From Chloroflexota bacterium (lineage in GTDB: Bacteria; Chloroflexota; Chloroflexia; Chloroheliales; Chloroheliaceae): a DNA stretch of 35,271 nt. Location: assembly GCA_902812345.1 (NCBI GenBank), contig CADDZM010000020.1:1-35271 (forward strand), given 5' to 3'. Position numbers and translations under genes: made by a program. Positions 6,633-12,281 of the stretch are shown piece after piece. The stretch's first letter is position 1; every line of letters begins with the position of its first letter. A model generated the notes under the pieces. It did no database searches, was not told the DNA's origin, and was given only the letters and a program-made list of their open reading frames with translations.

Positions 6633-7484
6633 CTAACTTGTAATCTGCGGATTTGTAATAATTGAGTAAACAATCAGCAACAGGCTTACCAGCGACACAA
6701 TCAAATACTCGCGTAACACGGCCCGGTTGAGATTATTGGTCAGGTAAGCCTGCAAAATCCCAGCGACCACATAAAAAATCAGCAGCAGCATTACCCCACC
6801 GATGAGGACCGGCAGCAGCCAGTAGTTGAGCGCCCAGGTCACTTCAGCCAGGATAAACGCGCCCACCAGCGAGTAAATTAACAGCCGGCTGTTGTTGGCT
6901 TTGGACTGCCGCAAAATTTCGTAGGTCAGAAAGAACGTCACCAGCCCGACCAGGGGCGCGCTTATCAAAGCCCGCCACTTGTTTACATAAATCGCGCTAA
7001 AGATGAGAAAGCCCGCGATATAGGTCGCCAGGTTAAGGCCGATGTTAGCCCAGCCGTAAAGCCGTTCCTGCCGCCCGATGGTGTAATACTGGGCGATAAT
7101 CACCACCAGCAGGACGAAGGACGAGATAATGGTCCCGACCACCTGGACTGGCGGGCTGTCGAACAACCGCAGGAAAAGATAGGTGCCGATTACCAGCATC
7201 GAAGGCAAAATCCAGGAGAACGGGGCAAACTCGAACTTCTGACCGCCGCGCGTCCGTATAACGGGCAGCTTTAGCAGGTAAATCTGGGGATGAGAGCGCA
7301 CGGTCGCATCGGCGATGCCGGAAGTAATCGTGACCAGGGCTGCCAGGAGGACAACGGTCAGGGGAAACTGGTAATCCTGGGAGACCAACTGGGAGAAGGG
7401 GCCGCTGGTAGGGTCGATTACCAGCAAGAAGCCCTGGGTAAGGGCGATCAGGATAGCCAGGACGATAATACGGTCAACTCGCAT
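6633..7484 (-). CDS. Polytopic membrane protein (possibly DUF5656-like)
   Basis: 283 residues with about eight hydrophobic segments and few charged residues between them. It starts MRVDRIIVLAILIALTQGFL, followed by a loop with the conserved-looking stretch QDYQFPLTVVLLAALVT, and a polar loop near 70-85 (LKLPVIRTRGGQKFEFAP). The pattern recalls membrane proteins of unknown function found in Chloroflexota (DUF5656), but I cannot confirm this by eye. No catalytic motif is seen. The start codon lies 3 nt after the tsaC stop, so the two are almost certainly translated from the same mRNA. Whether they are functionally linked is unknown. Confidence 0.75.
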   Translation of the reverse strand: MRVDRIIVLAILIALTQGFLLVIDPTSGPFSQLVSQDYQFPLTVVLLAALVTITSGIADATVRSHPQIYLLKLPVIRTRGGQKFEFAPFSWILPSMLVIGTYLFLRLFDSPPVQVVGTIISSFVLLVVIIAQYYTIGRQERLYGWANIGLNLATYIAGFLIFSAIYVNKWRALISAPLVGLVTFFLTYEILRQSKANNSRLLIYSLVGAFILAEVTWALNYWLLPVLIGGVMLLLIFYVVAGILQAYLTNNLNRAVLREYLIVSLVSLLLIVYSIITNPQITS

Positions 7485-7487
7485 GGT

Positions 7488-8051
7488 TTATTTCAAAGCC
7501 TCTTTAATTTGCCGGGCCGGGATAGCGGTTTCCCGCAAGACCCGGATAGTATCGCCGGTAGCATCCACCACGGTCGAGTCGATGCCGCCGGGGCAGGGAC
7601 CGCCATCGAGAATGAGTTCGATGCGGCCATTCAGATTTATAAGGGTCTGCTGAGCGTCCAGAGGACTGTGGCGGCCGCTGCGGTTAGCGCTGGTGGTTGC
7701 CAGGGGCGAACCCACTTCCCTGAGCAAAGCCAATGTCATAACATGGCCGGGCATGCGGACGGCGATAGTGCCGTCGCTGGCCTGGACGGCCTTTGGTAGG
7801 TCGGGATGCGGGAGCAAGACCAGGGTAAGAGCGCCCGGCCAGAATTGTTCAATCAGCCGCCGGGCGAGAGGTGTTATTTCTCGCGTTACCAGGGCCAGTT
7901 GCTCCGGTCCCGAAACTAAAATAGGGATAGGTTTGTTCCGGTCGCGCTGCTTCACCTCGTAGAGCCGTTCTACCGCCTCGCCATCGTACGCCAGGCAACC
8001 CACCCCGTAGACCGTATCGGTCGGGAAAGCGGCCAACCGCCCGGCCCGCAA
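7488..8051 (-). CDS. tsaC: Threonylcarbamoyl-AMP synthase (TsaC/YrdC/Sua5 family), start uncertain
   Basis: Makes threonylcarbamoyl-AMP from threonine, bicarbonate and ATP, the first step of the universal t6A37 tRNA modification. YrdC-domain motifs are clear: AAFPTDTVYGVG at the N-terminus, the basic KQRDRNKPIPILV, FWPGALTLVL, TIAVRMPGH, and TTSANRSG. It is the short TsaC form without the Sua5 C-terminal domain. The start is a problem. TTG at 8051 is the only ATG/GTG/TTG in frame, but homology-like sequence (TRLLPADQPDALSSTAAEL) continues upstream to a stop at 8142-8144. The better start may be ATC at 8129, which has GAGG 5 nt upstream; the coordinates given are the conservative ones. It is downstream of uvrC but has its own promoter. 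Confidence 0.9.
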   Translation of the reverse strand: MRAGRLAAFPTDTVYGVGCLAYDGEAVERLYEVKQRDRNKPIPILVSGPEQLALVTREITPLARRLIEQFWPGALTLVLLPHPDLPKAVQASDGTIAVRMPGHVMTLALLREVGSPLATTSANRSGRHSPLDAQQTLINLNGRIELILDGGPCPGGIDSTVVDATGDTIRVLRETAIPARQIKEALK

Positions 8052-8180
8052 CTCCGCCGCCGTACTCGAAAGGGCATCGGGTTGGTCTGCCGGAAGCAGC
8101 CGGGTTTTTAGTCTGGATGGCGAAGTGATAACTTCCTCTTTCTAGTTGATTTCGCGTTTAACAAACAATTATTTCGCGCT

Positions 8181-8221: not shown

Positions 8222-10270
8222 TTATAAATATTCGCGGATTTTGTTGAGGGCGGCTTTGTTCATGCCGGGGACGGCCAGCAAATCTTCGTCTTTTGCGGCC
8301 TTGATTTTGGCAGCGGTGCCGAAATTCTTTATCAGGGCTTGTTTGCGTTTGGGTCCAATGCCCGGCACGCTGTCGAGCGGCGAGGCGAAAGTGTTCTTGC
8401 TGCGTAACTGGCGGTGGAAGGTAATCGCGAAACGGTGGGCCTCATCGCGCAGGCGCTGGACCAGGTAAAAAGCTTCGCTGGTGCGCGGCACGTAAAGCGG
8501 CAAATCCTGGAACGCCTTGACGATTTCGTCATGGCTGCGGCCCGGCCCCTTGGTCATGCCAAAGAGCGGAATGTCACCCAGGTCAAGCTCATTGAGGACT
8601 TCGGCCACCGCCCGCAACTGCGGTTGACCGCCGTCAATAATCAGGAGGTCGGGCATGGACTGCCAGGAGTAGTCTACCTTTTTCCTGACCGCCAGGTCCG
8701 GTTTGGCCCGCTTGCCCTGGCCTTTTTCGGCTCCCAAACCCGGGTGGCCGCGCACGCCCCACTGCTGGTCGTGAGGGTCTTGCACTTCCATACCTTCGTC
8801 AAGTTCAAGTTCCTGCTCTTCGGCTTCCAGTTCCAGGGCTGCTTCCTCGATATTTTCCTCGATGTCCTCGCGAGCGTTCAGGTCGGCTTCCTCCACCGTT
8901 TTGGCCCGTTTGAAGCGGCGGCGGATAACCTCTTGCAACGAGCCGAAGTCGTTCGCGCCCTCGAAACCCTTGATTTTAAAGCGGCGGTAGTCCGATTTCT
9001 TGGGGCTGCCGTTCTCGAACACAACCATGCTGGCGACATTGTTCGTCCCCATCGTGTTTGAAATATCGTAGCACTCGATACGGCGGGGCAGTTCGGGCAG
9101 CTTCAGGAAGTTTTGCAGTTCAAGCAGGGCTTTGGTGGTCTTTTGCTCGTCGTTAAGCCAGCGCAGGCGGTTCTGTTCGAGCGTTTCCTGGGCGTTCTGG
9201 GCGACCATCTGGACTAAATCATACTTGTCGCCCGACTTTGGCACGTTGATTTCAACCTCCATCCCGGCCTTTTTGGAGAGCCACTTGGTGATGGTCTTAA
9301 GCTCCTTAATCGGGAACTGGACCTGCAAACGGGGCGGCACAAAGGTTGCCTCGCTATAGTATTGCTTCACAAAGCTGGCCAACACGTCGCGATCGGTTTC
9401 GTCCTCGACGCCCTGCAGCATGAAGTTCTCGCGGCCAATCAGCTTGCCGCGCCGGATAAAGAAGACCTGGACCGAGGCTTCGCCTTCCGAACGGGCCAGG
9501 GCAATCACATCCTCGTCAAAAGACGAACTGCTTACCACCTTTTGCTGCTCGACCACACCCCGGACCGCGCCAAGCTGGTCGCGCAGGTGGGCCGCTCGCT
9601 CGAATTGCAAGTCTTCGGCGGCCTGCGACATTTGTTCTTCAAGGCGCACGATAACATCATCGGATTTGCCTTCCAGGAACATTATCACCTGGTTGACCGC
9701 TTCGTCGTATTCGCCTTTATCGGCCAGACCCGCGCACGGCCCCAGGCAGCGATGAATGAAATATTCCAGGCAGGGGCGGGGTTCTTTCTCGGTGATTTTC
9801 AGGTCGCAGTTGCGGAACGGGAAAAGCTTGTCGAGGGTTTTGATGGTGCGAGAAGCAGTGCTATTTCCGGCGAAGGGGCCAAAGTAGCGCGCTCCGTCGT
9901 CCAGCACCTTGCGCACGATAAAGACGCGCGGCCACTTTTCGTTGGTAGTTACCTTGATGTAGGGGTAAGTCTTATCATCGCGGAGCAGGATGTTATAGCG
10001 GGGCCGGTATTCCTTGATGAGAGTATTTTCCAGGTTCAGAGCTTCGGCTTCGGTATCCACCACGTAATACTCGAAGTCCGCGATATTCGAAACCATCAGC
10101 CGGACTTTAGGAGCCTGCCCGGTTAAAGAGCCGAAGTAGTTGGAAACCCGATTGCGCAGCGAGACAGCCTTGCCCACGTAAATAATCTGATTGTCTTTAT
10201 CTTTCATGATATAGACGCCGGGGCGGTGGGGCAGGGATTTTACTTTTTCATCAAGATAGGCGCGGTCCAT
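8222..10270 (-). CDS. uvrC: UvrABC excinuclease subunit C
   Basis: Nuclease of nucleotide excision repair, cutting DNA on both sides of a UvrAB-marked lesion. Domains in order: GIY-YIG nuclease (RPGVYIMKDKDNQIIYVGKA, 16-35); Cys-containing region (CLEYFIHRCLGPCAG); UVR motif (near 205-240); RNase H-like nuclease with the expected Asp-Asp-His set at D402 (YDIS), D546 (LIIDGG) and H612 (DEAHRFA); and tandem helix-hairpin-helix (VPGIGPKRKQAL and VPGMNKAAL). At 682 residues it is about 70-80 longer than usual, because of a Glu-rich, low-complexity insertion at about 458-535 inside the RNase H-like domain. The ATG at 10270 has only a weak GGAAA ribosome site. Identity is certain. Confidence 0.97.
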   Translation of the reverse strand: MDRAYLDEKVKSLPHRPGVYIMKDKDNQIIYVGKAVSLRNRVSNYFGSLTGQAPKVRLMVSNIADFEYYVVDTEAEALNLENTLIKEYRPRYNILLRDDKTYPYIKVTTNEKWPRVFIVRKVLDDGARYFGPFAGNSTASRTIKTLDKLFPFRNCDLKITEKEPRPCLEYFIHRCLGPCAGLADKGEYDEAVNQVIMFLEGKSDDVIVRLEEQMSQAAEDLQFERAAHLRDQLGAVRGVVEQQKVVSSSSFDEDVIALARSEGEASVQVFFIRRGKLIGRENFMLQGVEDETDRDVLASFVKQYYSEATFVPPRLQVQFPIKELKTITKWLSKKAGMEVEINVPKSGDKYDLVQMVAQNAQETLEQNRLRWLNDEQKTTKALLELQNFLKLPELPRRIECYDISNTMGTNNVASMVVFENGSPKKSDYRRFKIKGFEGANDFGSLQEVIRRRFKRAKTVEEADLNAREDIEENIEEAALELEAEEQELELDEGMEVQDPHDQQWGVRGHPGLGAEKGQGKRAKPDLAVRKKVDYSWQSMPDLLIIDGGQPQLRAVAEVLNELDLGDIPLFGMTKGPGRSHDEIVKAFQDLPLYVPRTSEAFYLVQRLRDEAHRFAITFHRQLRSKNTFASPLDSVPGIGPKRKQALIKNFGTAAKIKAAKDEDLLAVPGMNKAALNKIREYL

Positions 10271-10931: not shown

Positions 10932-12281
10932 TTATTTGACGGTGATGGTCACCGATTTCATCTTGTCACCGACCGCGATATTATCTACCACGTCCATACC
11001 CTCAACGACCTGCCCGAAGATGGCATAACTGCCGTCCAGGTGGGGCGCGTCGGCCAGACAAATATAGAACTGACTGCCCGCGCTGTTCGGGGCCGAACTG
11101 TGAGCCATGGCGACGGTGCCGCGCGCGTGCTTTTTGAGCGTGGTGAACTCATCCGGGATGCTATAGCCGGGACCGCCCGTGCCATCGCCTTTAGGGTCAC
11201 CGCCCTGGACCACGAACGGGGCCGGGCTTTTCTCGACCCGGTGGAAGGTCAGGCCGTTGTAGAAGTTAGATAAGGCTAACTTCTCAAAGTTTTCGACAGT
11301 CTTAGGAGCCAGGTTCGGGCAAAGCTGAATGACAATCTTGCCGCCCTTTTCCATTTCAATGTTGGCGAACGCATTCTGGCCGGGTCCTACAGCCGGGGTT
11401 GGACTGCCCGGAATGGCGAACGGGGTGGCGGCAGCAGTCTGGCCGACCTTGCCGGAGGCAATCAGAATGAGGGTGTCGCCCTGTTTGATATTGCTCTGAA
11501 ATTCGGTCGGGTAGCCGGTAACATCGGTAATGCTTTCCAGGCTGGCGACCACTTTGCTGCCGCCTTTCTGGTAGACCAGTAGCGATTGTTTGTTGGTAAG
11601 GTCACTCTCGACGCGGAACTGAACCCAGCCATTGGACTCAAGGGTCTGGCGCAAGAAGGCGTCAACCTTGTCGAAACTGTCCGGTGTATCGGCAAAACTT
11701 ACCTTATCCGGGGTGAAGCTGCCAAAGATGGTGGCAAACTGAGCGTCAGCCAGGTTAGCAATAACCCCCTGGGAAGTCGCGTCCCCCGCCGGGAGGTCTT
11801 TCTGCCCGCTATAGCTAAGATTGGGCAGGGTCGCCAGGTCAGTTACAGTCGTGGTTGGTTTGGGGGCGCTGGCGGCGGGGGAGGCACTGGCGGCTACCGT
11901 GTCAAGGCAGGGATTAGCCGAAACAGCCGTCCCGCCGGTGCCGGGCGTAGCACTCGAGCCGCCGGAAGCAGCGGCAGTGGTCCCAGGAATAGCGGTAGTT
12001 CCCGCGCCGGGCGTGGGAGCTGCGGTGATAGCGCCTGCCGCCGTAGTGCCGGCCACCGCACCCGTTCCAGCGGAGGTAGTAGCGGCAGCGGCAGTCGTGG
12101 CCGAACCGGCAGGCGTATTTAATATGGGAGCCGAAGTTGTTCCACCGAGGGATGCCGCTTTGGTGGCGCTGCTGGTGGTGGCAGGAACGGCGGTCGGATT
12201 ATCGCCGCAAGCAAGCAGCGTCATGCACAGCAGCAAAGCAACCAGCGCAAAGCCGGTGTATTTAAACTTCAAAATAGACAA
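10932..12281 (-). CDS. Cyclophilin-type peptidyl-prolyl isomerase, surface lipoprotein
   Basis: A 449-residue lipoprotein. A short signal peptide ends in the lipobox LLAC with Cys25. Residues ~30-150 are a low-complexity Ala/Thr/Ser/Gly/Pro linker. Residues ~155-285 form a separate domain that I do not recognise (NLADAQFATIFGSFTPD, then LRQTLESNGWVQFRVESD). The last ~150 are a complete cyclophilin domain (IVIQLCPNLAPKTVENFEKLA, FHRVEKSPAPFVVQGGDP, SAPNSAGSQFYICLA). It would fold secreted proteins on the outer face of the membrane. The start is TTG with AAGGAG 9 nt upstream; no in-frame ATG lies before the signal peptide. The cyclophilin part closely resembles the protein encoded next to it. 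Confidence 0.92.
   Translation of the reverse strand: MSILKFKYTGFALVALLLCMTLLACGDNPTAVPATTSSATKAASLGGTTSAPILNTPAGSATTAAAATTSAGTGAVAGTTAAGAITAAPTPGAGTTAIPGTTAAASGGSSATPGTGGTAVSANPCLDTVAASASPAASAPKPTTTVTDLATLPNLSYSGQKDLPAGDATSQGVIANLADAQFATIFGSFTPDKVSFADTPDSFDKVDAFLRQTLESNGWVQFRVESDLTNKQSLLVYQKGGSKVVASLESITDVTGYPTEFQSNIKQGDTLILIASGKVGQTAAATPFAIPGSPTPAVGPGQNAFANIEMEKGGKIVIQLCPNLAPKTVENFEKLALSNFYNGLTFHRVEKSPAPFVVQGGDPKGDGTGGPGYSIPDEFTTLKKHARGTVAMAHSSAPNSAGSQFYICLADAPHLDGSYAIFGQVVEGMDVVDNIAVGDKMKSVTITVK

Follow-up and report, generated by a model that had tools for sequence, protein, structure and literature searches.

The tsaC gene in one genus of 'Ca. Chloroheliales' very probably begins at AUC or AUU

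The tsaC gene described here, from one genus that we place in the order 'Ca. Chloroheliales' (the name given in PMC10972752 in place of '54-19'), very probably begins at AUC or AUU, without a normal start codon; starts of this rare kind are otherwise familiar mainly from infC, which encodes initiation factor IF3. It was found in a window of 35,271 nucleotides, the whole stretch of DNA that was analysed. Comparison with related genomes makes it very likely that the AUC start is genuine and holds throughout the genus, and AUC behind a conserved Shine-Dalgarno (SD) sequence most likely replaced an ancestral AUG in this genus. Translation of the gene is probably held at a low level, and IF3 may influence it.

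Results

The start region of tsaC

On the minus strand of the window, a TAG stop (8144-8142) is followed by AAA GAG GAA GTT, by ATC (8129-8127) and then by ACT TCG CCA TCC AGA. From this ATC, the putative start codon, the frame is open for 213 codons to the stop at 7488-7490, the predicted coding sequence with its stop thus occupying 7488..8129. Between the TAG and the TTG at 8049..8051, the first canonical codon of the frame, there is no in-frame ATG, GTG or TTG, and the minus-strand reading agrees with the original prediction that the frame is open back to the stop at 8142-8144. The coordinates that it gave for two upstream elements also hold: the core GAGG (8138-8135) of the SD region AAAGAGGA (8134..8141) lies 5 nt (8134-8130) before ATC 8129, and an extended -10 promoter-like site TGTTATAAT (TG-T-TATAAT, by sequence reading) occupies 8189-8181. 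The N-terminal peptide that it quoted is in the right frame but begins eight codons after the ATC; the translation of the open stretch is KEEVITSPSRLKTRLLPADQPDALSSTAAEL. Next to tsaC on its upstream side, and on the same strand, lies uvrC (8222..10270), and the ATG of a gene for a DUF5656 membrane protein (6633..7484, minus strand) directly follows the tsaC stop. Entry by frameshifting from another frame was considered and rejected: no overlapping same-strand frame of the window has an ATG, GTG or TTG ahead of tsaC, and uvrC ends before the promoter-like site.

The codon at the start in related genomes

Five genomes of the order were compared. Three of them, that of the window (G000), G001 and G002, form the sample of the genus, and G003 and G004 represent two other genera of the same family. 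In all three congeners TAG-AAAGAGGA is conserved, and the leader CTAGAAAGAGGA is followed by AGTT-ATC in G000, TTCTTCT-ATT in G001 and AGTT-ATC in G002, with the conserved protein start coming next. The 11 nt CTAGAAAGAGG(A) before this AUY codon are identical in the three genomes. Among codons that differ from ATG by one base and lie in frame ahead of the domain, AUY forms the only column present in 3/3 congeners; together with the identical 11 nt, this goes beyond chance. Their first canonical codons (TTG, TTG and GTG) stand 9, 4 and 3 residues before the motif PTDTVY, at positions that do not correspond to each other.

In the two sister genera, tsaC has an ATG near the same spot, 36 residues before PTDTVY, the AUY of the genus being 35 residues before it. 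A search for tsaC covered 61 genomes, all of which gave matches, and the best 30 loci were used; 27 of these (L004-L030), two of them those of the sister genera, lie outside the genus. In each of these 27 Chloroflexia loci the motif is preceded, at a distance of 27-40 residues, by a canonical codon, a count of presence and not of use. The protein of the window is 91% and 85% identical to the tsaC proteins of its two congeners, and the three genes differ from one another at 14%, 22% and 23% of nucleotides, none having returned to AUG. The orthologue alignment proposed with the original prediction has thereby been made: at the start codon the relatives from the same genus have ATC or ATT, and the ATG that would have pointed to a sequencing error is found in none of them. 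The rare AUC start that it listed among its possibilities gains from this conservation of AUC or AUU behind an SD sequence in three separate assemblies. A literature search found no paper linking Chloroflexi with an AUU start codon.

The leader

The duplex of AGAAAGAGGA with CACCUCCUUUCU has a predicted energy of -9.1 kcal/mol in all three congeners; the 16S 3' tail itself was found in G003 and G004 only. The spacing from GAGG to AUY is 5 nt in two congeners and 8 nt in the third. The core consists of just GAGG, and in the three tsaC genes 10, 4 and 1 of the 212 remaining codons have an SD score that is equal or better, so that the SD is evidence for the site but no proof of it. In the sister genera the tsaC SD is weaker, with -7.5 and +3.6 as against -9.1 in the genus. 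The sequence TGYTATAAT can be read upstream of tsaC in all five genomes of the order. In G001, three ORFs (L031:3320-4882) that are absent from the window and from L032 lie between uvrC and tsaC; despite them, the promoter-like site, the SD and AUY remain with tsaC. No unusually stable RNA fold over the leader was found in the three congeners (85-nt z scores of 0.35, 0.82 and 0.81).

The tsaC protein

The product scores 185.7 bits against TIGR00057 (L-threonylcarbamoyladenylate synthase; cut-off 123.2) and 192.2 bits against PF01300, the only Pfam domain seen in the 217-codon frame; a Sua5 C-terminal domain after the YrdC domain was not found in this frame. The AlphaFold model, for which 24 of the 30 tsaC loci were used (mean pLDDT 93.7), matches Pyrococcus abyssi Sua5 (6f89_B) with Z 30.6 and rmsd 1.8 over 206 aligned residues, as for a YrdC/Sua5 fold. 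By profile and by model, the product is a predicted L-threonylcarbamoyladenylate synthase of the short YrdC-domain form, for which TC-AMP synthesis is expected. It thus resembles the known TC-AMP synthases TsaC/YrdC and Sua5 in profile and fold, but differs from Sua5 in lacking the C-terminal domain and from E. coli-type TsaC in scoring 80.9 against the equivalog NF007919, below the cut-off of 175. Each of the five order genomes also encodes a second TsaC paralogue of Sua5 size (314-339 codons; L036-L040), and in every one an ATG precedes the domain of this paralogue.

In the model, a strand (residues 10-13) and a helix (residues 19-28) are predicted with pLDDT of about 97. TTG 8051 corresponds to residue 27, and a start there would therefore delete the strand and nearly the whole helix. 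The residues upstream of TTG 8051 are conserved in alignment with the sister genera and with the class. Over the 213 codons from AUY, differences between congeners at first, second and third codon positions number 20/7/63, 29/20/91 and 23/20/103, third positions leading; the first 40 codons give 3/3/12, 8/5/15 and 7/4/21. Such differences appear as in a protein-coding gene under constraint.

Weighing the alternatives

Genome comparison thus points to a conserved AUY, a conserved SD, the lack of a usable canonical start and constraint on the residues that precede TTG 8051. Because AUY is shared, the canonical codons of the congeners are unmatched, the relatives have canonical codons and part of the fold lies upstream of TTG 8051, the AUC behind the conserved SD is the most likely start. 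An N-terminally trimmed protein starting at TTG 8051, another possibility of the original prediction, has in its favour that this is the first canonical codon of the window frame and has an SD-like duplex of -5.0. However, the two congeners have CTG and CTT in its place, and their own first canonical codons (TTG and GTG) are 4 and 3 residues before PTDTVY, so that a common start of all orthologues at this position finds no support, and the conserved upstream residues with their predicted strand and helix would be lost; such a start is very improbable. About as improbable is initiation at some other non-canonical codon, for example the CTG ten codons downstream of the ATC: it is in frame in G000 and G002, but the position is CTA in G001, and no near-cognate codon other than AUY is found in 3/3 congeners or lies just behind the conserved SD. 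The third possibility raised at the outset, a base or assembly error in an ATG, can in practice be set aside. Although the two named congeners are metagenome assemblies, this one codon would have to be wrong in each of three separate assemblies, which read ATC, ATT and ATC. Decay of an untranslated tsaC is given equally little credence: the missing canonical start and the redundancy with Sua5 would suit it, but the frame is intact in 3/3 congeners, changes are gathered at third positions and no gaps interrupt the alignment of its sequence to the family's conserved blocks.

More weight, though somewhat less than even, is given to the view that translation does start at AUY, but that the codon arose by accident, has no regulatory role and was tolerated because, with a stronger SD and another enzyme of the Sua5 type, losing AUG was nearly neutral. 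The Sua5-sized paralogue with its own ATG in every genome of the order, the weaker SD of the sister genera and the alternation of the third position between C and U all favour it. On the other side, AUY has persisted without return to AUG in three species that have diverged considerably in tsaC, and infC in the same genomes retains AUY.

Other non-canonical starts in the order

Non-canonical starts were also sought by comparing G001 (1.17 Mb) with G002 (1.04 Mb), the contigs carrying tsaC, infC and the Sua5-sized paralogue being chosen on purpose. Removal of overlapping or third-position-unbiased pairs left 170 of 596 reciprocal ORF pairs. In 17 of these the alignment extends 8 or more codons upstream of the first canonical codon in both genomes; six have at least 55% identity in that stretch and the other 11 fell below this threshold. 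We regard four of the six as convincing: tsaC and infC, together with two genes whose products Pfam assigns as a GT2-family glycosyltransferase and a phosphoribosyltransferase-domain protein. The remaining two, one of them presumably SecA-like, have ordinary starts 11-15 codons further on. The untargeted yield is 2/168, for G001 against G002 alone and without a control lineage. Earlier scans, run without the shadow-frame filter on 84 G001-G002 and 30 G001-G000 pairs, gave 31 and 20 alignments starting upstream of the first canonical codon, which, tsaC apart, were read as short runs of leader codons, as incorrect frames or as genes with an ordinary start, and rejected. When the 170 pairs were rescanned with the SD taken into account, a conserved canonical codon with an SD was present in 134 and absent in 36. 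Conspicuous in the group of 36 were the tsaC and glycosyltransferase genes. The infC and phosphoribosyltransferase genes were placed in the group of 134, by our reading on account of an ATG further downstream, so that the rescan is not a clean counter of such starts.

The likely start of the glycosyltransferase gene (L174, G001:C42:4136-4405; L175-L178) is ATC, ATC, ATC, ATA and ATA in G000 to G004, behind AGGAGG; in-frame TTG and ATG codons occur further upstream in G000, and in-frame TTGs in G003. The phosphoribosyltransferase-domain gene (L189-L193) has a candidate CTG start behind an SD (-9.1 to -12.9) in all five genomes of the order, and an in-frame ATG with a weaker SD 13 codons after it. 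In 12/12 homologues outside the order (L199-L210) a canonical codon is found 33-42 residues before the RGG motif, which argues that the stretch after the CTG is translated elsewhere. Within the window, a lipoprotein gene at 10932-12281, conserved in G001 and which we take to encode a cyclophilin-like protein, apparently starts at a TTG 9 nt after GGAG.

Discussion

A proposed mechanism

We propose that tsaC has a promoter to itself, of the extended -10 type and some 50 nt upstream, from which it would be transcribed, and that ribosomes would start at AUC (AUU in one species), positioned by the conserved AGAAAGAGGA. The initiator tRNA would read AUC or AUU with a third-position mismatch, giving the full-length product M-TSPSRLKTRLL..., and the genus would have switched from the AUG that the sister genera retain. 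Taken as a whole, this account, from promoter to full-length protein, is held with good confidence. We infer both that initiation does take place at AUY and that it is weak. IF3 would discriminate against AUY as at infC, limiting the output of TsaC and tying it to the level of IF3.

The infC genes of the order (L041-L045) have ATC at the start in G000, G001 and G002 and ATT in G003 and G004, in each case behind GAAAGGAG, with duplex energies of -11.9 to -12.4 kcal/mol; such a start is the classical mark of autoregulation by IF3. IF3 is described as discriminating against starts other than AUG, GUG and UUG (PMC4611024) and as regulating its own synthesis via AUU, infC and pcnB being, according to that source, alone among E. 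coli genes in having this start (PMC9410913). In Staphylococcus aureus, AUU and AUA starts, conserved for cvfC1 and ccpN, are reported to yield about 10% of the output obtained with AUG, ccpN reaching as much as 30% when cells grow in rich medium (PMC13009471). Since infC in the order uses AUY and the literature documents both IF3 discrimination and low AUU/AUA output, weak and IF3-sensitive translation of tsaC is favoured by analogy. As a counterpoint, the second Sua5-sized enzyme in all five genomes means that AUY could have drifted. A rule of AUH starts for the t6A pathway was considered and rejected: tsaD has ATG in all five genomes, and the Sua5-sized paralogue has one ahead of its domain in all five.

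Known AUH starts

With a frame conserved in 3/3 congeners without a canonical N-terminal start, an AUH codon at the homologous position and GAGG 5 or 8 nt upstream, tsaC has the features of the infC and pcnB kind and on this sequence evidence joins the known natural AUH-start genes (infC, pcnB, S. aureus cvfC1 and ccpN) as a predicted member. It resembles infC (AUU, AUC or AUA) in an AUH start that stands behind a strong SD and is conserved over species. However, infC autoregulates its own factor, whereas control of tsaC would act in trans, and the tsaC SD is weaker (-9.1 compared with about -12). Like pcnB of E. coli, it would be a gene other than infC kept low by its start codon, AUU in pcnB (PMC9410913, PMC1780047); the two differ in function and lineage, and low translation was measured for pcnB but is deduced for tsaC. 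The S. aureus genes cvfC1 (AUU), ccpN (AUA) and citZ (AUA) likewise have non-canonical starts, with reporter output at roughly 10-30% of that of AUG; an extended SD is predicted in that species for infC, cvfC1 and ccpN (PMC13009471). Unlike these cases, the gene here is tsaC and the codon is AUC in two of three species.

A wider pattern of non-canonical starts in the order is possible. It seems rather unlikely, though worth considering, that codons outside AUG, GUG and UUG form a regular start class in 'Ca. Chloroheliales' (order-wide for infC, the GT2 gene and the phosphoribosyltransferase gene, and in one genus for tsaC), constituting a regulon whose translation would follow the level of IF3 and would link initiation fidelity to t6A modification of tRNA.

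Gene callers limited to ATG, GTG and TTG would truncate the tsaC enzyme differently in each species. The family offers a natural switch from AUG to AUY in which both states are known, so that one can test directly how the start codon affects the level of TsaC. If IF3 does control the gene, cells would have more or less of a tRNA-modifying enzyme depending on the level of an initiation factor.
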